Assembly (NCBI GenBank): GCA_003133425.1
Contig: PKXI01000328.1
Span: forward strand, 1 to 14,278
Direction of reading: 5' to 3'
Source of the DNA: Acidobacteriaceae bacterium
GTDB lineage: Bacteria > Acidobacteriota > Terriglobia > Terriglobales > Acidobacteriaceae
DNA: 14,278 nucleotides
Shown: positions 3,635 through 12,974 of the stretch, piece by piece
Numbering within the stretch: position 1 is the first letter of the stretch
How the letters are laid out: each line of letters begins with the position of its first letter
Translations under genes and position numbers: made by a program
Notes under the pieces: model-generated
What the model was told of the DNA's origin: nothing
The model's database searches: none
What the model saw: the letters and a program-made list of their open reading frames with translations, nothing else

Positions 3635-6022
3635 ATGAAGTCTTTGGTGCATTCGCGCAGAAATCTGACATGGCTATTGGTGGCCTTCTGCGCAGGTTCA
3701 ACTCTCGCCGCCCAGAACACCGGCGTAACACTTGAACGAGGCGGCAGCACGGTCGTCCTCGAGCCGTACGCGCCGAACATCCTGCGTGTGACGCTGAGCC
3801 TTAAGCGCGAACCAGCGCTTGCCGGGCCGGGATACGGCCTTGTTGCTAAGCCGTCTGCCACCGGGTGGAGCGCGAGTCAAACGGCGAGGGCCGACGTGTA
3901 CCGCTCAGATCGAGTCGTTGTGACGGTGGACCGCAACCAGCCCAATGGCACGCCACCTGTTCAGACGCAGGTGGATATTTCGAAATACTTCAATGGCACG
4001 ACTCCGGGCGCACATATCGTCTTCAGAACACCCGAGGGGAAACAGATATTGGAGATGAACGACTGGTCGCAGGGCGTTCCCAATCACAAGGACGGCACCG
4101 CCGCAGTGCTGCAGGATCGCCGCCCGGGTGATCCAGGGTTTTACACGGTGGGCGCGACGTTTGCATCGCCGGACGATGAACACTACTACGGCCTCGGTCA
4201 AAGCCACGAGGGATTTCTCGATCATCGCGGCCACCAGGTTCGTTGCTGGGCCGATTACCTGGCCACCGGCGGGCCGAGTTTCTGCGTACCGTTCCTTGTG
4301 ACGAACAAGGGCTACGGGCTCCTGTGGGACAACCCTTCGCGGACCACAATCGAGCCTGGATTCAACGAGCAGACGCGCTGGAAGTCCGAAGTCGGAGACC
4401 GGGTCTCCTTCTTTGTGATCACCGGCAACACCATGGATGAGATCTACGCCGGCTACCGGTTGCTGTCGGGCCCTGCACCGATGCTGCCCAAGGCCGCCTA
4501 CGGTTATATCCAGTGCAAGCAGCGCTACGCCAGCCAGGACGAATTGATGGCAGTGGCAAAGGGGTATCGCGACCGCCACCTGCCTGCCGATATGCTGATC
4601 GTCGACTGGTTCTACTACACGAAGATGGGGCAGATGGATCTGGACCCCAAATTCTGGCCCGATCCCAAGGCGATGAACAAACAGCTCCACGAAATGGGCT
4701 TCGAGACCATGATCAGCGTATGGCCGCGCTTTGTTCCGGACGACCGCTACTATTCCGAACTGCGCCAGAAGGGATGGCTGATTCACCTGGCTGACGGCAC
4801 GCCGATCGACGGATTGCCGTACGACCGGGCCGGCTCTGACATTGACACGACAAATCCTGAGGCCGCCCGCTGGTATTGGAAAACGATTCACGACAACATC
4901 ATGAGCCAGGGATTCGACTCACTGTGGGCAGACGAAACCGAGCCTGACCTGCCTCCGAACGGCGCGTATTTCCACGTCGGGCCGGGAACGCAGTTCTTCA
5001 ATGTGTATTCGCTCTTCCACACCGCGGCGCTCTACGACGGATTCCGCAAAGACGAGCCGCAACGCCGTGCGCTGATCCTTTCGCGCGATGCGTACCTGGG
5101 AGTGCAGAGCAAGGGAACCATCGTGTGGTCCTCTGACATTTTTCCGACATGGGACACGCTCAAACGGCAGATTCCCACCGGGCTGGACGTAACCGCTTCC
5201 GGAATTCCTTACTGGTCCAACGACACCGGCGGCTGGCAGTATCTGCCCTCAGTTCATCACCCGGCCCACAAGCCGCTGCTTGACCCGTCTGACGCTCGCG
5301 AGACTGTAGGCGGCTACGATGACTACCCCGAGCTTTACACGCGCTGGTTCCAGTACGCCACGTTCCTGCCCATCTTCCGCACCCATGGCAGCCGGCCGGC
5401 GAACGAAGTTTGGTCGTACGGCAAGCAGGCTGAGCCGATTCTGGAAAAGTACCTCCGCCTGCGCTATCAACTGATGCCGTACATCTACTCTCTCGGCTAC
5501 AAGACATGGTTGACGGGAGCTCCAATCATGCGCGCTTTGCCTCTGGATTTTTCGGGTGACCCCAAGGTGGCGGATATCAGCGACGAGTACATGCTCGGGC
5601 CGGCGTTTCTCGTGGCTCCGGTAACGGAGCAGGGAGCAACGAGCCGCGAAGTCTATCTGCCTGCCGGAACGGACTGGTACAACTTCTGGACCGGGGAGCG
5701 GGTGAAGGGCGGAATGAAAATCACCGTGGATGCGCCGATCGATACGATTCCGCTGTTTGTGCGCGCAGGATCGATTGTTCCTCTCGGAAGCGCGGTGGAG
5801 AGCACGCATGAGGCGCAGACGATAGCCAAGGTGCGCGTTTACCCGGGAGCGGATGGCGACTTCACTCTGTTCTCAGACGACGGCAGGACCTACGCCTACG
5901 AGAAGGGCGCGGGCTCCATCACTCAGCTCCACTGGAATGACGCGACTGCAAAGTTAACTCACGAAGGAACAGAACTCTGGACCGGACCGGACAGCGCGGT
6001 GGTCGAAGTAGTTGGGCGCTAA
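3635..6022 (+). CDS. Secreted GH31 alpha-xylosidase/alpha-glucosidase-type hydrolase (copy 1)
   Basis: A 795-residue enzyme of normal GH31 length. GGAG lies 8 bases before the ATG. Residues 1-26 are a signal peptide (basic start, then LTWLLVAFCAGSTLAA), so it is exported. Residues 30-280 match the N-terminal beta-sandwich (VLEPYAPNILRVTLS; HYYGLGQ at 183-189). The catalytic barrel runs from about 285 to 620: the nucleophile is D433 in WADETEP and the acid/base is D501 in VWSSD. The C-terminal beta domains end in the DUF5110-like pattern YPGADGDFTLFSDDG. GH31 enzymes are retaining, releasing alpha-linked xylose or glucose from non-reducing ends. The W-x-D-x-TEP form is one I associate with alpha-xylosidases of xyloglucan loci, so xylosidase is favoured over glucosidase or transglucosidase by inference. 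It is followed after 80 bp by a paralogue. Confidence 0.93.
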   Translation: MKSLVHSRRNLTWLLVAFCAGSTLAAQNTGVTLERGGSTVVLEPYAPNILRVTLSLKREPALAGPGYGLVAKPSATGWSASQTARADVYRSDRVVVTVDRNQPNGTPPVQTQVDISKYFNGTTPGAHIVFRTPEGKQILEMNDWSQGVPNHKDGTAAVLQDRRPGDPGFYTVGATFASPDDEHYYGLGQSHEGFLDHRGHQVRCWADYLATGGPSFCVPFLVTNKGYGLLWDNPSRTTIEPGFNEQTRWKSEVGDRVSFFVITGNTMDEIYAGYRLLSGPAPMLPKAAYGYIQCKQRYASQDELMAVAKGYRDRHLPADMLIVDWFYYTKMGQMDLDPKFWPDPKAMNKQLHEMGFETMISVWPRFVPDDRYYSELRQKGWLIHLADGTPIDGLPYDRAGSDIDTTNPEAARWYWKTIHDNIMSQGFDSLWADETEPDLPPNGAYFHVGPGTQFFNVYSLFHTAALYDGFRKDEPQRRALILSRDAYLGVQSKGTIVWSSDIFPTWDTLKRQIPTGLDVTASGIPYWSNDTGGWQYLPSVHHPAHKPLLDPSDARETVGGYDDYPELYTRWFQYATFLPIFRTHGSRPANEVWSYGKQAEPILEKYLRLRYQLMPYIYSLGYKTWLTGAPIMRALPLDFSGDPKVADISDEYMLGPAFLVAPVTEQGATSREVYLPAGTDWYNFWTGERVKGGMKITVDAPIDTIPLFVRAGSIVPLGSAVESTHEAQTIAKVRVYPGADGDFTLFSDDGRTYAYEKGAGSITQLHWNDATAKLTHEGTELWTGPDSAVVEVVGR

Positions 6023-6087
6023 AGCATCTTCTGCATTCATCGCTTACGTGTTTCGGAAGAATTGAGGGCGGCATTCCACCGCAATAA

Positions 6088-6102
6088 GAAGAGAGGATTC
6101 AG
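6088..6102 (+). promoter_or_regulatory. Ribosome-binding site shared in form with copy 3
   Basis: AGAGGATTCAG directly precedes the ATG of GH31 copy 2. The same leader, GAGGGTTCAG followed by ATGAGA, precedes the broken third copy at 8751, which shows the leader was duplicated with the gene. The 80-bp gap after copy 1 has no terminator-like hairpin with a T-run, so copies 1 and 2 may be co-transcribed. Confidence 0.6.
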
Positions 6103-8532
6103 ATGAGACTTATTGTCAATCGTGGCCAAATCTTGATCTCGGTCATGCTTGCATTCTTTGCTGGGCCAATACTCCACGCACAGAACACAGGCATGATTGT
6201 TGAGCGAGACGGCAACACAATCGTTCTTGAACCGTACGCGCCGAACATTGTTCGAGTGACGTTGAGCAGGAACAAAGCAGCCGCGACCGAAGCCGCAGGA
6301 TATGGTTTTGTGGGAACGCCCGCGATGACTGGCTGGACTCATGAGCAAGGCTCCGACGGCGGCGACGTTTTTCGCTCCGCGAGGCTGGTTGTTCATCTCT
6401 CTCCCGACCACATGGACAAGTCGCTCCTGCCAAAACCGATGCCACTCGATGACCTGAATCAATCGCTGCGAGACCATTACTTTGGAGGTGGCCCCAGGAG
6501 GGGTCCCAACCAGGACGCGATCTCTGTAACTACGGCTTCGGGTCAGATGCTCCTGAATATGCGGAGCTGGTTAATGATTCCCAACCATTCTGAGTCCACG
6601 GCGGCGGGCGCAGAAAAGCAGGATCAAAAGGAAGCCGGTTACCATGTCGCCGCGACATTCGACTCTCCGGCTGGCGAACACTACTACGGGCTCGGCCAGC
6701 AACAGCAAGGCTTTCTCGACCTGCGGGATCACCAGGTGCGCTGCTGGCATGACTACAGTGCCATCGGTGGACAGAACGTCTGCGTTCCGTTCATGGTCTC
6801 CAGCCGCGGCTACGGATTCATCTGGGACAATCCTTCAAAGACTACCATCAATCTCGGCTTCAACCAGCAAAACGTCTGGTCGTCGGAGATAGGAGACCGT
6901 GTTTCGTTCTTCGTCATCGCAGGTGCAAACAGCGACGAAATTTACCAGGGCTATCGTCAGCTGACGGGCGTCACTCATCTGTTGCCTAAGTCTGCCTATG
7001 GATACATCCAGAGCAAGGCGATCTATCCGACCCAGGATCAGCTGTTGGCGGTTGCAAAGGGGTATCGCGATCGTCAGCTTCCACTGGATGTTCTTGTAGT
7101 CGACTTCCTTAATATGACCAGGCAGGGCGAACTGGACTTGGACCCTGCACGGTGGCCTGATCCAGCAGCCATGAACCAGCAACTTCATTCCATGGGCATC
7201 ACCACGCTGCTGAGCGTTTGGCCGCATTTCTCTCCCGGAACTCGTTACTACGACATGTTGCTCAACAAGGGATGGCTGATCCATTCCCCTGATGGCAAAC
7301 CGGATTTCGGTGGGTTCAAAGATGTGATTGGCCCGAATATTGACACCACCAACCCCGACGCAGCCAAGTGGTGGTGGGAGTCCATCAGGGATCGATACAT
7401 CAAGCCCGACGGTTTCGACTATCTCTGGCTCGACGAAACGGAACCCGATATCGATCCCGCGAAGGACGTGTTGTTTGTCGGATCCGGTTCACGCTATTAC
7501 AACGTGTATCCACTCTTCCACACAGCTTCTGTGTACGAAGGCTCCAGACGCGACTTCGGAGACAGCCGCCGGGTGATGACTCTCGCTCGCGCAGCCTATC
7601 TGGGAGCGCAACGCAATGGCACAATCTTCTGGTCGAGCGACATCCTCTCGACATGGGACATGTTGAAGCGCTCCGTCCCGACCGGTTTGAACTTCACAGC
7701 ATCGGGTATGCCTTACTGGGATACCGATATCGCCGGCTTCTTCTCTCCTGCGCTCCCGGCAACGTATCGCCCGATGCACACGCCCTTGGTCGACCCCTCA
7801 GATGCGCTTGGCAATGTCGGCAACTACGTAGATTATCCCGAGTTGTTTGTACGATGGTTTCAATGGGCGACCTTCCAGCCTGTCATGCGTGCACACGGCG
7901 AGAGGATCCACAACGAGGTTTGGGGCTACGGGAAGCAGGCTGAGGCGATCCTCTCAAAGTATCTCCGCTTGCGCTATCAGCTCTTGCCCTACACATACTC
8001 GCTCGCCTATGGAAGCAATCAAACCGGCGCGCCGTTCATGCGTGCGCTCTTCATGGACTTTCCCGGCGATCCCAATGTTGCCGCGATCGGCGATGAGTAC
8101 ATGTTCGGGCCTGCGCTCCTCGTAGCCCCGGTTACTGACCAGGGAGCGACCAGCCGCACGGTCTATTTGCCCGGCGGTACGGACTGGTACAACTACTGGA
8201 CAAATGAACGCTACAAAGGCGGCCAGACGATCACGGTCAACGCGCCAATTGATACGATTCCACTCTTCGTTCGCGGCGGCTCCATTCTTCCGCTCGGCAA
8301 GCCGATTCTAAGCACGGAACAGAAGCAGGATCTGGAAAGGATCAAGGTCTACCCTGGCGCAGATGGAGACTTCGCCCTTTACAGCGATGATGGAAAAACT
8401 TACGCCTACGAGAAGGGGGATTTCCACATCACCAACTTGCATTGGGACAACACAGCGGGTAAGTTAACCCAGAAAGGATCGGTTGCCTGGACGGTCCCGG
8501 ATAGTCAGCTCGTCGAGGTGGTTGGCCGTTAG
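6103..8532 (+). CDS. Secreted GH31 alpha-xylosidase/alpha-glucosidase-type hydrolase (copy 2)
   Basis: An 809-residue paralogue of the preceding enzyme, alike along its whole length and ending in the same VEVVGR. Residues 1-26 are a signal peptide (LISVMLAFFAGPILHA). The N-terminal sandwich carries an extra, Gly/Pro/Arg-rich stretch at about 105-140 absent from copy 1 (FGGGPRRGP). The nucleophile is D444 in WLDETEP and the acid/base D513 in FWSSD, both intact. Subsite regions differ: copy 1 has DWFYYTKMGQ after the second barrel strand where copy 2 has DFLNMTRQGE, and copy 2 has GGFKDVIGPN against GLPYDRAGSD. These differences suggest divergence in substrate length or branching rather than simple dosage. 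Probably an operon partner of copy 1, acting in the periplasm or outside the cell. Confidence 0.93.
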   Translation: MRLIVNRGQILISVMLAFFAGPILHAQNTGMIVERDGNTIVLEPYAPNIVRVTLSRNKAAATEAAGYGFVGTPAMTGWTHEQGSDGGDVFRSARLVVHLSPDHMDKSLLPKPMPLDDLNQSLRDHYFGGGPRRGPNQDAISVTTASGQMLLNMRSWLMIPNHSESTAAGAEKQDQKEAGYHVAATFDSPAGEHYYGLGQQQQGFLDLRDHQVRCWHDYSAIGGQNVCVPFMVSSRGYGFIWDNPSKTTINLGFNQQNVWSSEIGDRVSFFVIAGANSDEIYQGYRQLTGVTHLLPKSAYGYIQSKAIYPTQDQLLAVAKGYRDRQLPLDVLVVDFLNMTRQGELDLDPARWPDPAAMNQQLHSMGITTLLSVWPHFSPGTRYYDMLLNKGWLIHSPDGKPDFGGFKDVIGPNIDTTNPDAAKWWWESIRDRYIKPDGFDYLWLDETEPDIDPAKDVLFVGSGSRYYNVYPLFHTASVYEGSRRDFGDSRRVMTLARAAYLGAQRNGTIFWSSDILSTWDMLKRSVPTGLNFTASGMPYWDTDIAGFFSPALPATYRPMHTPLVDPSDALGNVGNYVDYPELFVRWFQWATFQPVMRAHGERIHNEVWGYGKQAEAILSKYLRLRYQLLPYTYSLAYGSNQTGAPFMRALFMDFPGDPNVAAIGDEYMFGPALLVAPVTDQGATSRTVYLPGGTDWYNYWTNERYKGGQTITVNAPIDTIPLFVRGGSILPLGKPILSTEQKQDLERIKVYPGADGDFALYSDDGKTYAYEKGDFHITNLHWDNTAGKLTQKGSVAWTVPDSQLVEVVGR

Positions 8533-8634
8533 ATCACGCCCGAAGAACAAAGAGTGAATTACGGCCTAACGGTGCGGAAAAGAACGGATCGCCGATATCT
8601 GGCGGCCGAAACGCAACTAAGCGCCAAGCAGAAT

Positions 8635-8676
8635 GCAGTGATGACTCTCGAACAAATGTTCGCGAGTCATCACTGC
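8635..8676. repeat. Long near-perfect hairpin after GH31 copy 2
   Basis: GCAGTGATGACTC (8635-8647) pairs perfectly with GAGTCATCACTGC (8664-8676). After one T-C mismatch the stem continues with CGAAC (8649-8653) and GTTCG (8658-8662) around an AAAT loop. That makes 18 paired bases in 42. There is no T-run, so it is not a classic intrinsic terminator, but at 100 bp past the stop it could still terminate, stabilise the operon mRNA 3' end, or be a mobile palindromic repeat. Confidence 0.6.
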
Positions 8677-8750
8677 GCTTCAGTAAATTCATAGTCTTCC
8701 CGAAACGGATAGATACAGCGTCTAGCAGCACACACGAGAAGAGGGTTCAG

Positions 8751-8990
8751 ATGAGATTGTTCGAGAGTATCCGCAAAGTCTTTTAATTGTTATGGCCGCA
8801 GCGATTCCGGGAATCGCGCTGCATGCGCAGGAAAGCCGGATCGTCATTGATCGAGATGGCAGCACGATCGTCCTTGAGCCCTATGCTCCGAACATTGTCC
8901 GCGTGACTCTGAGCACACTCAAGGATCAGGCGATCGCAGGACCAGGATGCGGAATCGTGGCAAAGCCCCTCCCCGCCGGATGGACATGTC
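8751..8990 (+). pseudogene. Broken third GH31 paralogue (5' fragment)
   Basis: ATG at 8751 sits behind the same GAGGGTTCAG leader as copy 2. The first frame stops after 11 codons (TAA near 8784). Adding one base restores a signal peptide that runs into the frame from 8792 (LLIVMAAAIPGIALHAQ), so there is a one-base loss in the signal-peptide region. The restored frame matches copies 1 and 2 (GSTIVLEPYAPNIVRVTLS at about 23-41 from 8792, then GIVAKPLPAGW) up to about 8984-8990. It then abruptly changes to unrelated sequence and stops at 9011. The catalytic domain is absent and no 3' remainder is seen elsewhere in the window. The break coincides with the truncated end of the rep fragment on the other strand. 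Confidence 0.85.
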
Positions 8991-9563
8991 TAAACCCGCC
9001 ATGCGGTCAGTGAACCGTTTGCATTCGATCTCGCGTTTTCGCCATTCTAAGCGCCACTCGGCCAGCTTGTTGTAAATACGAATTAAGCATGGCCTCTTCC
9101 CTGCGTAGAGCGTTTGGGCCACCGCTCTACCCATCCCGACAAACTGCAGTTCCTTCTCATGGGATTTTTCGATGCGAGAAGAAAACTGCTTCCGGTTCAC
9201 ATATGAATGGTCTTTGAACCATGGCACGGACACGCCTTCAATGTCGGCAGCAAGATCGGTTCTCATGACCCCGAGTGTCCACGGGGCCACGTCGAAGAGC
9301 AGGGTTACGATTCGCGCCATGCCCTCAAGGGTCTTCTCGCCCGCATCGATCATTTCAATCTTGTGGTTTGGCCTTCCATTGCGGAGGTATAGGTGCACAA
9401 CCGCGTCGATACCGAAGGGCTCTCGAAGATCACAAATGTACTGGTAATACTTGGAGGGTCGGAAGAGTGGGACTGGGTGCCTTTTCAGTTCTTCCAAAGG
9501 CCCCGCGAGTATGGGACCTGGAAGAGCAAGCTCGGACACCCGCACGTCGAGCTTATCGAGCAC
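8988..9563 (-). pseudogene. Rep_trans-type rolling-circle replication initiator, 3'-truncated
   Basis: GTG at 9563 follows AGGAGG by 9 bases. About 191 residues look native before the frame runs into the inverted GH31 fragment (out-of-frame tail to 8919). Recognisable blocks are GPILAGPLEELKRHPVPLF (19-34), VMRTDLAADIEG (99-110, acidic metal-site-like residues D103 and D107), and TLYAGKRPCLIRIYNKLAEW (151-170). The last matches the G-S/K-R...R-x-Y-D/N-K block of pT181 RepC, NicK and MobT-like proteins, where Y164 would be the nicking tyrosine. Such proteins nick one strand at a hairpin origin to start rolling-circle replication or conjugative transfer. Family members usually exceed 300 residues, so over a third is missing. 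The start side is intact and preceded by an origin-like block. Family call is from remembered motifs. Confidence 0.7.
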
Positions 9564-9583
9564 CTGAGAAACCCTCCTCAGGT
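9561..9583 (-). promoter_or_regulatory. rep ribosome-binding site held in a hairpin
   Basis: On the minus strand ACCTGAG (9583-9577 side read as its complement pair) and CTCAGGT form a perfect 7-bp stem with an 8-base loop GAGGGTTT. The Shine-Dalgarno spans stem and loop, and the second arm overlaps the first two bases of the GTG start. This would limit initiator translation when folded, a sensible copy-number control. Confidence 0.5.
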
Positions 9584-9612
9584 ACCGGGGACAGTGCTGA
9601 AGATTGCCGAAA

Positions 9613-9624
9613 CGTAAATTTACG
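9613..9624. repeat. Perfect 12-bp AT-rich palindrome
   Basis: CGTAAATTTACG is fully self-complementary. It lies one base from the larger hairpin at 9626-9658 and about 50 bp upstream of the rep start. An AT-rich palindrome beside a nick-site hairpin would suit an unwinding or protein-binding site; this role is inferred. Confidence 0.5.
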
Positions 9625-9625
9625 T

Positions 9626-9658
9626 GAGTTGCAGGCTATTAGACAGAGCCTGCAACTC
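9626..9658 (-). other. Putative double-strand origin / nick-site hairpin for the Rep_trans initiator
   Basis: GAGTTGCAGGCT and AGCCTGCAACTC form a perfect 12-bp stem with a 9-base loop. On the rep-coding strand the loop reads CTGTCTAAT. The arrangement GGCT, loop ending TCTAAT, AGCC resembles the pT181-family nick hairpin as I remember it (GGCT, ACTCTAAT, AGCC, nicked between T and A). It is on the strand expected for a Rep_trans initiator and 63 bp upstream of its start. The role as origin or oriT is inference from structure and position; the hairpin itself is certain. Confidence 0.5.
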
Positions 9659-9660
9659 AA

Positions 9661-9675
9661 GGCGGCTTCGCCGCC
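9661..9675. repeat. GC-rich hairpin beside the putative origin
   Basis: GGCGGC and GCCGCC form a 6-bp stem with a TTC loop, directly next to the nick-like hairpin. The same kind of short GC hairpin with a TTC/TCT/TTTCG loop recurs at 10097-10111, 10141-10153 and 10210-10226. Confidence 0.5.
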
Positions 9676-9932
9676 CTGGTGGACCTCTGCCGCCGATGGG
9701 CAGCGGCCAACGCTTGCGCACAATGCCGGAGAATCCCCGCTCAACGCTGTATACGCGTCTCGGAGAGGCTGTTCGAGGTCTTGGAGGGGAGTAAGCGGCT
9801 AGGAAGGGAACTGCGGTGCTTAAACAGGATTTGCGGAGAGGAACTGTCTGGGTGCATTTCTGGCCTCGTGGGCGGGCGCCTATGGTCGAAACCAAAAAGG
9901 CGAGGGAGAATTCCGCTGGTCGATGGCAACGG

Positions 9933-10331
9933 CTACATGACGTGCGGTCCATGCGCCTCCTTGTCCCAGCGGTCGAGAGTTTGGAAGAACTGAATCAGGG
10001 ATGTGACTTGGGAATCGTCGAGGACGTAGGAAGGGAATGAGTTGGATTGAGCATTGGGGGTAAAGGAGGCCAGCGCTTCACGCTGGGCTTGATTGGCGGG
10101 GCTCTGCCCCGAACCCCGGCCAGTTTTAGACTGAGTGCCCCCCGCTTCGCGGGCCGTTGGAATGACCTTGGGGTCTGTTGCGGGAGGGAAGTAATTTGGT
10201 GGGCGAGCCGCTGGCTTTCGGCCAGCCGTCGATGGAATTGTAGGCCGTCTCAGTCCCGGACCGGTCTGGCAAACCGACTCCCCGGATTTTGGTCCGACCG
10301 CATTCCGCTCGCCAATGAAAGCGCCTCTCAT
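9933..10331 (-). CDS. Small unrecognised protein upstream of rep
   Basis: 132 residues from ATG at 10331, in the same direction as rep. I do not recognise a family. Residues 1-85 are rich in Pro, Gly, Ser and Arg and look disordered. Residues 100-132 look like a real folded tail: SYVLDDSQVTSLIQFFQTLDRWDKEAHG, amphipathic and compositionally unlike a shadow frame. Three short GC hairpins fall inside the coding sequence. A weak promoter lies just upstream and no clear Shine-Dalgarno is visible. The placement (small gene, palindrome block, rep) suggests a replication accessory or copy-control role, but nothing in the sequence proves it. The N-terminal half may be wrong if the true start is internal. 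Confidence 0.5.
   Translation of the reverse strand: MRGAFIGERNAVGPKSGESVCQTGPGLRRPTIPSTAGRKPAARPPNYFPPATDPKVIPTAREAGGTQSKTGRGSGQSPANQAQREALASFTPNAQSNSFPSYVLDDSQVTSLIQFFQTLDRWDKEAHGPHVM
10097..10226. repeat. Three short GC-rich hairpins
   Basis: CGGGGC/GCCCCG (10097-10111, loop TCT), CCCGC/GCGGG (10141-10153, loop TTC) and GCTGGC/GCCAGC (10210-10226, loop TTTCG) fall within 130 bp, inside the small gene's coding sequence. They could fold on single-stranded DNA during rolling-circle replication, or be ordinary GC-rich coding palindromes. Confidence 0.4.
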
Positions 10332-10343
10332 AGCGCTATCTTG

Positions 10344-10371
10344 GTTATAACTCGGCTATTTACATTGTCTT
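10344..10371 (-). promoter_or_regulatory. Possible sigma70 promoter of the small gene
   Basis: On the minus strand, AAGACA (10371-10366) and TATAAC (10349-10344) are separated by 16 bases, ending 12 bases before the ATG at 10331. The -10 matches 5 of 6 and the -35 is weak. Confidence 0.3.
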
Positions 10372-10448
10372 AATGGCGAGAACTGTGGATGAATTTGCAT
10401 TTTGTGGCGGAGCCATTGACGATGGTCTTGATTACCTGGCGGTGATAT

Positions 10449-11519
10449 TTGATTGGCCCCGAATTACCTGGCGAAGATTTTTCTGAACTGACCTGGGAAT
10501 CAGAGCACGAGCAGAAGCGCAAGCCCGGAAGGCCGCGCGAGATTGACCCAGAATCTCTTAACCGTGCAGTGAACGATTTGCAGTTCGTCCTTGAGCAGAA
10601 TTGGGGTGCGGTAGGCTGGCTCCTTCGAGAAGCCAAGTCGATTTCCGACGTGCGAAATGCGTTTGCGAAAATCGTCTACCAACGTTGCGGATACTTAGAG
10701 CCATTCACGGACGTTCAGGCACCGAAAACTAATCCCAACGAGCTACGAGCACTCCGGAAAAGAGTGGCAGAATTTAAGGAACGACATAGCCGCAATTACG
10801 CCCGATGCCAAAGCGCGCGGGAAGATTTTGACCGTGCATTCGAGGCACACGCTGCGGATTCCGATCCGGTAAAGCAAGCGCAGATTCAGGCAATCCTCCC
10901 CGATCTGGGCTACAAGTCTCAAGAGGCGGCTTCACTTGAGCAAACGAGCAGAATAGAACTGGAATTGCTCCGGACCCAGCTAAAGGAATGTGAAGCCTAC
11001 TTCGCACAAACGGAGATTCTTGGGTTCCTTGAAAGCAATCGCCGCCAGTTCACGCCCAAAAACGTAGCGTGCGCGATGGCGGGACTCCCGCACGTAACTG
11101 CGCGAGTCTCATGCGAGCAATGTGCCAAGTACGGGATCAATCCCTCGCACGGCATTGCGTTTGAGATTTTCCGGACTATCGAACGTGCGGTGCAGGAACC
11201 GATCCGTGATCTGGGACGTTCAATCGACACGCTGCGGACAAATCTCCTTACCGGACCCCACAACCATCTTGCCCATGCTGTTCAGCTCCGGAAGAACTGG
11301 TATTTTCTGGAATCGGCTGTCCGATCAGCTGCCCGCGATACGCATGCGCAACGCGGTTCCCTCGCATTCCGCATATTAGCCGATTACAGCAGGTTCAGCA
11401 CTTCGCATAGTGCCGCCGAGGCAGTTCTTGCCCAGGCAGCCCTGTTGCTCAAAGACGACGAAAACCCCGAATTGGAGCGTGGTCCGAGTTGGGGTAATGC
11501 CGGTCGGTCATGCGGATGA
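10449..11519 (+). CDS. Unrecognised protein of the mobile region, probably 3'-truncated
   Basis: 356 codons from TTG at 10449, just after an in-frame TGA. No ATG, and no good ribosome-binding site, is available near it, so the true start is doubtful; a short ATG frame at 10373 (37 codons) ends inside this gene and could be its displaced 5' end after a frameshift. Visible features: a basic KPGRPRE segment (25-31) like an AT-hook, helical and partly coiled-coil-like segments (about 95-190), and a small C-x-x-C-...-H cluster (SCEQCAKYGINPSHG, 221-235) that could bind metal. Codon phase is clean throughout, which supports real coding. The last residues after about 345 look foreign, and sequence past about 11495 reads as coding on the opposite strand, so the native C-terminus is probably lost. 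Function unknown; the neighbours suggest cargo or maintenance of a plasmid/ICE. Confidence 0.6.
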   Translation: MIGPELPGEDFSELTWESEHEQKRKPGRPREIDPESLNRAVNDLQFVLEQNWGAVGWLLREAKSISDVRNAFAKIVYQRCGYLEPFTDVQAPKTNPNELRALRKRVAEFKERHSRNYARCQSAREDFDRAFEAHAADSDPVKQAQIQAILPDLGYKSQEAASLEQTSRIELELLRTQLKECEAYFAQTEILGFLESNRRQFTPKNVACAMAGLPHVTARVSCEQCAKYGINPSHGIAFEIFRTIERAVQEPIRDLGRSIDTLRTNLLTGPHNHLAHAVQLRKNWYFLESAVRSAARDTHAQRGSLAFRILADYSRFSTSHSAAEAVLAQAALLLKDDENPELERGPSWGNAGRSCG

Positions 11520-11877: not shown

Positions 11878-12182
11878 TCATGTAATTCAAATCAGCACGT
11901 CCTGGATTTACTTGACAGGAGCATCCATAAGGAGCAATGTGTATATACTTACGTCACTTTACAGACAAGACGATCCCCTTCCAGTTCGCCGCCTGGTCCT
12001 GGGCCGGCTGGGCAGTTGTATAGAGAGGCTCCGTGAGGCTGGCGGCCGTTCCAGAGAGCAGTCAGTCCACTTGGCCAGGATGGAGGTGCACGAATGGATT
12101 ACAGTCGAGGCCGGCGCCCTTGACCTACAGCGCAGTGGCGGCAGGTCCCCACAACTCATATACTCACCTCCAGAGGAAGGGG
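11878..12182. other. Region without a supported gene
   Basis: About 300 bp with overlapping frames on both strands, none with a credible start or recognisable content. TTGACA occurs at 11912-11917 but no good -10 is spaced from it. The right end holds the inverted repeat and ribosome-binding site of the small RHH gene. Confidence 0.4.
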
Positions 12183-12188
12183 GTGAGT
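12162..12188 (+). promoter_or_regulatory. Inverted repeat enclosing the RHH gene's ribosome-binding site
   Basis: ACTCACC (12162-12168) pairs with GGTGAGT (12182-12188). The 13-base loop holds the Shine-Dalgarno AGAGGAAGG and the second arm covers the GTG start. It could act as an autoregulatory operator for the RHH protein or as a translation-limiting hairpin. Confidence 0.45.
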
Positions 12189-12344
12189 CAGATCGTGAAG
12201 AAAGAAGCATCGGGACTCAAAAGAGTGAATATCAACGTTAAAGTTAGTCTGCACAATGCCTTCAAGGCCACAGCCGCGGCCCAGGGCACAGATATGAAGA
12301 CCATACTGCTGGAGTTCATCCGGAGCTACGTCGCCAAGCATTGA
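12183..12344 (+). CDS. Small ribbon-helix-helix protein, ParG/CopG-like
   Basis: 53 residues from GTG at 12183 behind AGAGGAAGG; an alternative GTG at 12195 gives 49. After a short basic tail, GLKRVNINVKVSLHNAFKATAAAQGTDMKTILLEFIRSYV (11-50) matches the RHH fold: a DNA-contacting beta strand (KRVNINV), helix A (SLHNAFKATAAAQ), a G-T turn and helix B (MKTILLEFIRSYV). Such proteins are plasmid partition centromere-binding proteins, copy-number repressors or antitoxins, and usually repress their own promoter. No ParA ATPase or toxin gene is next to it; it is followed after 32 bp by the recombinase pseudogene, so it may have controlled that gene. It is intact as far as can be seen. Confidence 0.75.
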   Translation: MSQIVKKEASGLKRVNINVKVSLHNAFKATAAAQGTDMKTILLEFIRSYVAKH

Positions 12345-12376
12345 TCTATCGCCCCGCAGAAGAAGAGCAGGCGCGC

Positions 12377-12974
12377 ATGAAGCGCGCCGCGCTCTACTCA
12401 CGGGTCTCGGCCTAGGATCAGATCCCCCAAACGCAGATCCTCGATCTGCGTCAGATGGCTGCCCAACGCGGCTATGTAATCGTCAGGGAGTACACGGACA
12501 AGATCTCCGGCACAAAGGCTAAACAGCCAGGACTCGATGCCATGATGGCTGACGCCCGCTGCGGTCAGTTCGATGTGGCGATGACCTGGGCGTGCGATCG
12601 CATCGCTCGTTCAGCGCCATTTTCTTGAAGTGCTGGACGAACTGAACCGAATCAGCGTCGAGTTCATCAGCTTCAGGGAGAGCATCGATACTGCTGGGCC
12701 GCTGGGCCCGACCATCGTCGTAATCATCGGCTGCATCGCCGAGCTGGAACGCAGCCTGATAATCGAGCGGGTGCGCGCCGGCATGCGGCGCGCCCGGCTT
12801 GAAGACTGTCAGATCGGCAGAAATCCGTTGGTACTGGATAACCTCGCCATCCAACGAGACCGCGAGTATGGCCAGAGCCTTCGCCAGATCGCCAAAGGCC
12901 ATCGCATCTCCACGGCCACCGTCCGGCGTGTTCTCTGCGAGTGGCCGCCCCCGCTCCTCGACAAAATAGCCTGA
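12377..12974 (+). pseudogene. Hin/resolvase-family serine recombinase, broken by a stop and a frameshift
   Basis: From ATG at 12377 the first 12 residues read MKRAALYSRVSA, holding the catalytic serine in RVS. A TAG follows directly (12413-12415), then the same frame continues as a typical resolvase domain (QTQILDLRQMAAQRGY, EYTDKISGTKAKQPGLD, CDRIARS) to about 12613. A small deletion at 12614-12617 shifts the frame, and the rest continues in another frame (HFLEVLDELNRI, GPTIVVIIGCIAELERSLIIERVRAGMRRARL) with a C-terminal helix-turn-helix (SLRQIAKGHRISTATVRRVL). The total of about 198 codons is normal for small invertases and resolvases. With two lesions the gene is dead unless the amber is read through and the frame corrected. 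Such enzymes resolve plasmid dimers or invert DNA, fitting an inactivated plasmid/ICE module. Confidence 0.88.

Follow-up and report, generated by a model that had tools for sequence, protein, structure and literature searches.

A candidate pT181-like double-strand origin, and a separately conserved structured module, in small Acidobacteriaceae elements with a distant Rep_trans initiator

We analyzed a stretch of 14,278 nucleotides from an Acidobacteriaceae bacterium (contig PKXI01000328.1 of assembly GCA_003133425.1; "the window"), and in particular a compact block upstream of a gene for a Rep_trans-type replication initiator (rep). An earlier note on this DNA had likened the block to a rolling-circle origin. 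We believe, with a probability of roughly 0.87, that it is the double-strand origin (dso) of a Rep_trans-type rolling-circle initiator, and that both belong to a family of small tRNA-side elements in the Acidobacteriaceae. The evidence is of the kind that sequence can give: the parts of the block and their conservation, the motifs and fold match of the protein, the spacing between the predicted nick and a candidate bind site, and the modular linkage of these parts across genomes. What the window holds is the remnant of such an element, about 2.5 kb long, which has kept the origin region and a second conserved structure (R1), with a truncated rep. We set this extent because DNA homology to the locus L001 spans 8982-10317 (79.6% identity) and because L030, L032, L036, and L043 each have, in the corresponding position, a homologue of a divergent open reading frame (ORF) that the window carries at 10449-11519 (+).

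When the coordinates were re-read, all four features that had been described within 115 bp upstream of rep were found, on the minus strand. In order toward rep, they are a GC hairpin (GGCGGC-GAA-GCCGCC, with a C(GAA)G triloop; 9675-9661), which is immediately 5' of the main hairpin; the main, ICRII-like hairpin, which is the predicted nick site (9659-9625); the palindrome CGTAAATTTACG, an ICRIII-like candidate bind site (9624-9613); and a hairpin that carries the Shine-Dalgarno (SD) sequence in its loop (ACCTGAG-GAGGGTTT-CTCAGGT; 9583-9562), whose 3' arm covers most of the GTG start of rep (9561-9563). The main hairpin reads TGAGTTGCAGGCT-CTGTCTAAT-AGCCTGCAACTCA: its stem is perfect and its loop is as the earlier note quoted it, but the stem has 13 bp instead of 12. 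It is the only perfect stem of at least 10 bp (with a loop of 3 to 15) in the 14,278 bp. Across 60 dinucleotide shuffles of the window, perfect stems of at least 10 bp occurred 0.27 times on average, and a 12-bp stem occurred in none. DNA folding of the 151-nt origin stretch gave z = -3.8. By the CT'AA rule (PMC9371924), the loop CTGTCT^AAT would be nicked between 9641 and 9640, and the center of the palindrome is 22 bp 3' of that predicted nick.

The rep ORF (8919-9563, minus strand, 214 amino acids) is a pseudogene. Its residues 1-194 (8982-9563) are homologous to relatives that are about 369 amino acids long when complete, the nearest of which is from an Acidobacteriaceae metagenome-assembled genome. 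After residue 194, the ORF continues into out-of-family sequence at the junction with the third, truncated copy of a GH31 gene: both the rep homology and that copy (8774-8989) end within 8982-8989. Motif IV and the C-terminal domain were lost from the window's copy, but in an alignment of 36 homologues (A2), all five published Rep_trans motifs are kept at positions that are invariant or at least 90% conserved: N' (D), I (RxD), II (T/SxY/ExG), III (YxKxxE), and IV (W/LxRxE), by our own assignment. Tyr164 is invariant among the aligned homologues and is the predicted nicking tyrosine. When the predicted fold was compared with known structures, three Rep_trans structures (RepDE, RepDN, and RepSTK1, with their crescent beta-sheet) outranked all other chains, with 16% identity to 4cwe across the aligned part. 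Rep has motif N' from residue 3 on and, like the plasmid initiators, carries its extra helices toward the C terminus. Pfam's Rep_trans family (PF02486) matched, at E <= 0.1, 13 of the 20 members of alignment A1, a set that includes the window's protein (best E, 2.6e-6), and P0020 has a precomputed assignment to PF02486. By sequence, the best hit in the PDB was an ATP synthase gamma (E = 0.066); NCBIfam gave no match; the best hit in PHROGs had E = 0.088 and is of unknown function there; no plasmid or phage record matched P0002 at E <= 1e-3; and both rep and the hairpin were absent from the viral contigs.

Across 398 genomes from the family of the L001 genome, the hairpin and rep go together. 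At E <= 1e-10, rep was found in 18 of the genomes. The pattern TTGCAGGCNNNGTCTAAYAGCCTGCAA, with up to two mismatches, was found at 17 places in 15 genomes (and the reversed pattern, as a control, at none); 13 of these 15 genomes also have rep. The hairpin is not a dispersed repeat unlinked to rep, which would have spoken against an origin, as 16 of the 17 places are upstream of a Rep_trans gene or fragment. Nearly the same hairpin is kept even with Rep proteins that are about 30% identical to the queries, and in 16 of 17 loci, including the window, 32-68 bases separate the GCAA in the right arm from the start codon of rep. Of the five genomes that have rep but not the pattern, three (G007, G103, and G132) have a contig without the 5' part of rep. 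In a phylum-wide sample, rep was found in 3 of 396 genomes, all of which were already in the family sample.

Among 18 aligned dsos, the loop is TCTAA[T/C]AG in 17, and it is TTTAATAG in L055. The earlier note had suggested aligning the regions upstream of homologous rep genes and looking for compensatory changes in the arms around a conserved loop. The same hairpin with the same loop core is indeed present upstream of the homologues, but the arms are kept mostly by conservation of sequence. The palindrome is more variable: each of its four outer pairs is formed in 17 or more of the 18 dsos, and its fourth pair is A-T in 7, C-G in 10, and mismatched in 1. The distance from CT^AA to the center of the palindrome, as counted on the dso alignment, is 22 bp for the 12-bp form and 22.5 bp for the 13-bp form. 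In plasmid pC221, a conserved hairpin carries the nick in its loop, and the repeat that Rep binds, which is plasmid-specific, is centered 23 bp downstream (PMC4797284); a near-constant hairpin followed by a variable bind repeat agrees with this published pattern. The likeness to a pT181-type nick site that the earlier note proposed holds for the CT'AA in the loop, the spacing of the repeat, the five motifs, and the fold.

The dsos of pT181 and pC221, with their initiators RepC and RepD, share with this system the nick in a hairpin loop, the variable repeat about 23 bp downstream, the five motifs, and a fold with C-terminal helices. In pT181 plasmids, though, the dso lies inside the coding region of rep (PMC5703833), and here it lies upstream; because of this, we do not file the element as a pT181 family plasmid, even if it would work like a pT181 dso. 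It also differs in being a chromosomal element with an integrase, usually beside a tRNA, in its host family (Acidobacteriaceae), and in its 13-bp stem.

In the relatives, the usual order is a divergent ORF, R1, small ORFs, the dso, rep, a small basic ORF (in several), an integrase, and a tRNA. A tRNA gene is just downstream in 13 of 19 loci with a Rep_trans initiator and in 10 of 12 loci with an initiator of the HUH type (see below); some of the others stop at a contig end. By Pfam, L044 has a large serine recombinase as its integrase, and L103 has a tyrosine recombinase. L035 has, 3,961 bp upstream of rep, a stretch of 48 bp that matches the 3' part of tRNA-Val at 46 positions, which would give an element of about 6.3 kb.

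Several observations weigh against the view that the block is the dso of a tRNA-side element. G165 has the hairpin without rep, and in G289 the frame downstream of the hairpin starts with MIDKLEVRVPES, which by eye is the start of rep but is not hit by tblastn. Conversely, although most rep homologues carry the hairpin, the pair L037 and L038 (from G111 and G204) do not, and the 5' flanks of both are readable; they have TCTAATAGCC on the opposite strand. In L034, the hairpin is 493 bp before rep. Covariation of the stem is thin: the sole clear double change is in L049, from G289 (TTGCAAGC...GCTTGCAA), and L041 has one unpaired change. The inner pairs of the palindrome are loose, with pair 5 in 15 of 18 dsos and pair 6 in 11. 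The window's protein scores 19.9 bits against PF02486, below the cut-off of 29.6. As for the tRNA and the integration, in 6 of the 19 Rep_trans loci, no tRNA is found immediately downstream (some of these loci are at contig ends), the relic lacks an integrase of the kind seen in relatives, the window has no tRNA gene, and repeats like that of L035 were not found in the other elements that we tried, nor were long attachment (att) repeats found at the elements with serine integrases.

The hairpin might instead be, mainly, an origin of transfer (oriT), with the Rep_trans protein acting as a relaxase for transfer by a helper conjugation system and with replication being secondary, as in the IME_oriT group of streptococcal integrative and mobilizable elements (IMEs) or the integrative and conjugative element (ICE) ICEBs1. 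We consider this the less likely reading, but it has some support. The CT'AA nick motif is common to the dsos of Rep_trans initiators and the oriTs of MOBT relaxases (PMC9371924), and the MOBT systems (NicK of ICEBs1, Orf20 of Tn916, and RelSt3 of ICESt3) share with ours the CT'AA hairpin loop, the Rep_trans catalytic domain, and the integrative lifestyle. The Rep_trans proteins of streptococcal IMEs work as relaxases, including one mentioned as lacking the helix-turn-helix (HTH) domain (PMC7563843), and an enlarged MOBT family that includes IME proteins has been proposed (PMC7563843), which could still include this rep. Like the IME_oriT elements, which also combine a Rep_trans protein with an integrase in a small integrative element (PMC7563843), the acidobacterial elements carry an integrase, and no transfer genes were seen in their ORF lists, which were read without a profile search for such genes. 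However, the MOBT relaxases of ICEs have an N-terminal HTH before the Rep_trans domain, and the protein here has none: its motif N' is already at residue 3, and its extra helices are C-terminal. In addition, a palindrome that adjoins the nick hairpin is the layout of plasmids, whereas the bind site of RelSt3 is 68 bp downstream of the nick repeat (PMC9371924). The IME_oriT elements also differ in that ours have tRNA neighbors, acidobacterial hosts, a serine or tyrosine integrase, and the R1 module. Transfer and replication could use the same site.

It is far less probable that the hairpin is conserved as a transcription terminator or as the 3' end of a small gene. A small cysteine-containing ORF (CSRCxRPAEFSL...; 9620-9952, minus strand) has a 3' end that crosses the nick hairpin in several relatives, where it reads through the hairpin as SCRLCLIACNSR, and the conservation of the hairpin could therefore be partly coding, which is a further point against a dso. 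But the DNA of the stem and loop is conserved almost to the letter, and in L031 and L042 the preceding listed ORF stops before the hairpin. No T run follows the hairpin, CT^AA and a palindrome at 22 bp would be left unexplained, and the hairpin is absent from all 12 of the elements with an HUH-type initiator. 

About 0.5 kb upstream of the origin block, on the same strand, is R1, a previously undescribed three-way-junction structure of about 115 nt (10197-10319) that is a candidate single-strand origin (sso). It was first seen as a BLAST block among relatives (10205-10313). For the 12 sequences that were first aligned, RNAalifold gave 31 pairs, with 95.1% of cells paired and two-sided changes at 14 pairs. 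None of 500 shuffles was as good on four of five measures, and slid versions were 31-48% paired; on the fifth measure, the number of further pair types, the alignment did not stand out from the shuffles (443 of 500). A covariance model built from these 12 sequences found R1 in 23 of the 398 family genomes, at 27 places, of which 25 are strong (E <= 6.1e-13). It also found R1 in 6 of the 396 genomes of the phylum sample, where the strong matches were already in the family sample. When 28 matches were aligned, 24 of the 31 pairs had two-sided changes, 96.4% of cells were paired, and all five measures beat 500 shuffles; this alignment was fitted to the model and includes the 12 training sequences and two weak loci (L106 and L107), and the shuffles keep the relatedness of the sequences. 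By our own count on the same data, there are 44 G-U cells (16 of them from one pair) and 9 A-C cells, which indicates that the strand of R1 is the strand of rep. L106 is a weak, degenerate copy, and R1 in L107 is at chance level.

R1 is extended by a long-range helix, P6, whose 5' strand is inside R1 (GACTGAG, 10249-10255) and whose 3' strand is downstream (CTCAGTC, 10129-10135, followed by TAAAACTGG). Across 25 sequences, P6 joins the loop GGCTGAG of R1 to CTCAGYC before TAAAA, with 90.9% of cells paired, as compared to a mean of 80.7% and a maximum of 86.9% in 2,000 shuffles. The set skips L035, L105, and L106, which have no anchor, and keeps the weak L107; because the 3' strand was taken as the best run near AAAA and was not chosen again in the shuffles, the 90.9% leans upward. 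L043 and L103, in which both strands changed, are better evidence for P6. Also between R1 and rep are a hairpin with a C(GAA)G triloop (CCCGC-GAA-GCGGG, 10141-10153) and the hairpin P7 (CGGGGC-AGA-GCCCCG, 10097-10111), whose stem varies in sequence among elements. An ORF at 9933-10331 (minus strand) overlaps R1 with its N-terminal part, and its C-terminal part (DDSQVTSLIQFFQTLDRWDKEAH) is common to the relatives.

R1 does not seem to be a known RNA. With Rfam 15, the three matches at 8500-11000 of the window had E = 0.66-0.73, far under the gathering scores; at gathering scores, only tRNAs were found in eight loci; and at E <= 0.5, L099 and L101 had tRNAs and one match antisense to a tRNA. Acido-1 and Acido-Lenti-1 have Rfam accessions (PMC2864571), so these scans should cover them. 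We also rejected the idea that R1 is coding: the frame is open in many loci, but L031, L039, and L040 have two single-base deletions, and the helices covary. The ACCA after the closing stem, which might suggest something tRNA-like, is present in some copies only and is not conserved. Four weak matches to R1, in G046 (0.006) and in G517, G595, and G734 (0.002-0.006), are no better than chance would give in about 400 genomes.

The initiator that follows R1 is not always of the same kind. R1 precedes a Rep_trans gene in 12 loci, including the window, and an HUH-type Rep in another 12, which were identified in a tblastn search that used four of their number as queries; the four HUH Reps that were tested with Pfam matched PF23343 (E = 1.1e-12 to 6.3e-16). 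In all 24 loci, R1 is 5' of the initiator gene and on the same strand, and in the 12 Rep_trans loci it is upstream of the hairpin dso. Since R1 precedes either type of initiator and the hairpin is confined to the Rep_trans side of the comparison, the dso is tied to the initiator and R1 is not. Plasmid dsos and ssos show the same independence: ssoA occurs on diverse plasmids with different types of initiator (PMC5703833), and in most plasmids the sso is upstream of the dso in a fixed orientation (PMC4595007). Other combinations also occur. In L108, which is the G289 locus, the hairpin and R1 are found together with a truncated rep; R1 is missing from L033, L034, and L042, although these have rep and the hairpin; and L037 and L038 lack both R1 and the hairpin but have rep.

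The hairpins between R1 and the initiator bear on whether R1 acts as DNA or as RNA. We counted stems of at least 6 bp in this interval in 24 elements (10,766 nt) and in flanks (155,682 nt, taken more than 400 nt upstream of R1 or more than 4.5 kb downstream). In the interval, 41 of 53 hairpins have a triloop, with 25 of the form C(GNA)G, 9 of C(AGA)G, and none of the complementary form C(TNC)G; in the flanks, 47 of 212 have a triloop, with one C(GNA)G and three C(TNC)G. Because the elements are related by descent, the counts do not represent independent events, but the base in the middle of the loop varies from element to element. GNA loops closed by G-C form extraordinarily stable mini-hairpins in DNA (PMC4686876). 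Our proposal, to which we give somewhat less than an even chance, is that R1, P6, and the C(GNA)G hairpins form a new class of sso, a folded single strand of DNA of about 200 nt that is kept while the initiator is swapped.

Alternatively, R1 may be a structured leader RNA (an attenuator or a ligand sensor) with which the rep-integrase transcript begins, and not a DNA origin. Its covariation is strong and includes G-U pairs on the rep strand, it sits between the divergent gene and the rep operon, and pT181 regulates rep by a leader and an antisense RNA (PMC5703833). In minimum-energy folds of the 28 sequences, RNA parameters recovered 69% of the consensus pairs and DNA parameters recovered 57%; because of this result, we lowered our estimate for an sso and raised that for a leader RNA slightly, to just under even. 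Two other findings count against an sso: the R1 of the window folds unexceptionally on its own (z = -1.8 with RNA parameters and -1.6 with DNA parameters), and in ICEBs1, which is integrative, has a Rep_trans initiator, and provides the only sso from such an element in PMC4595007, sso1 is downstream of oriT, just after nicK, whereas R1 is upstream of the dso. Against a leader RNA are the DNA-stable triloops, with the above caveat that related elements are not independent samples; the match in position and orientation to most plasmid ssos (PMC4595007); and the lack, in 25 loci, of any conserved, promoter-like sequence at a fixed distance upstream of R1. Overall, we consider the single-stranded DNA and leader RNA readings to be close to even.

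If R1 is an sso, it could be a new class. Like the plasmid ssos (ssoA, ssoU, ssoT, and ssoW), it is structured, fixed in orientation, and upstream of the dso, as is the case in most plasmids, and like ssoA it occurs with different initiators; it adds a long-range helix and GNA triloops, and had no Rfam match near the gathering score where we scanned. The STAXI motif is another pseudoknotted candidate near DNA-handling genes that might act as single-stranded DNA (PMC2864571), but its structure and context are different, and its UUCG loops argued for RNA, while the GNA triloops argue for DNA here.

We infer that integration, binding, nicking, and replication would proceed as follows. The integrase would excise the element as a circle, and Rep would attach to the CGTNA...TNACG palindrome by its C-terminal helical domain. 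Once the 13-bp hairpin beside the palindrome is extruded, Tyr164 would nick its loop at CT^AA, on the rep strand. Primed by the resulting 3' end, leading-strand synthesis would proceed through rep, the integrase, att, and R1 and back to the dso, which would free the rep strand as a single-stranded circle. R1 and the hairpins, which would be reached last, may fold, and the host may start the second strand there, as at an sso.

The new finding is a probable pT181-like dso with a distant Rep_trans protein in tRNA-linked elements of acidobacteria. The earlier note had expected an acidobacterial example to be new, and for the dso we agree, but Rep_trans proteins were already known from phages of Gram-negative bacteria, such as CTXphi. 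None of the papers listed among the literature matches, as judged by titles and the starts of abstracts, concerns Rep_trans elements in Acidobacteriota. Origins of the Rep_trans type have been characterized in plasmids and ICEs of Firmicutes, and the two-part layout, with a nick hairpin and a palindrome at 22 bp, is seen here in another phylum and with a distant initiator. That the dso follows the initiator and R1 does not is a natural experiment on what an sso is, and on whether DNA or RNA is the selected form.

Some side observations concern the variants of these elements. In L037 and L038, TCTAATAGCC is followed by TTTGCGTCA upstream of rep, on the strand opposite to rep; TCTAATAGCC is possibly a reversed or hairpin-free nick site. 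Upstream of rep in L033, L034, and L042 are stems of 7-10 bp with GAA or GTA triloops, which are possibly another type of sso. In L105, R1 (oriented 616) precedes a third kind of protein, with FHQHAIL and YYISRY by our own reading; it is perhaps from another HUH subfamily. A sequence of the form TTGAC...TAATCG in the HUH loci was considered as their origin, but by eye it is in frame at the N terminus of the HUH Rep, and we dropped it. In the window and in L032, L039, L041, L043, and L044, the 3' end of the small CxxC-type ORF lies across the nick hairpin, and this ORF has homologues in the HUH-type elements L093, L094, L101, and L104 and in L108. Just before rep, in the same place as the SD hairpin of the window, L043 and L014 have an 11-bp hairpin with the SD in its loop (CACCGGCCCCG-AGGAG-CGGGGCCGGTG), whose stem is unrelated in sequence to that of the window; these hairpins suggest translational control of rep in some elements.

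The divergent ORF at 10449-11519 is 27-36% identical to its homologues in L030, L032, L036, and L043 and matches no Pfam family above the cut-off; it would be cargo of the element. Beyond it is what we consider to be a second mobile-element relic: a small serine resolvase (12365-12974, +) that is broken by in-frame stops, beside a ParG/Arc-like ORF (12033-12344). On the other side of the rep relic, the window contains two tandem GH31 genes by Pfam (3635-8532, +), which are 56% identical. The start of a third copy (8774-8989, +) stops at the rep relic, and its remainder did not turn up on the far side of the relic. The second GH31 gene is followed by a terminator-like, imperfect inverted repeat of 42 nt (8635-8676, 90%).
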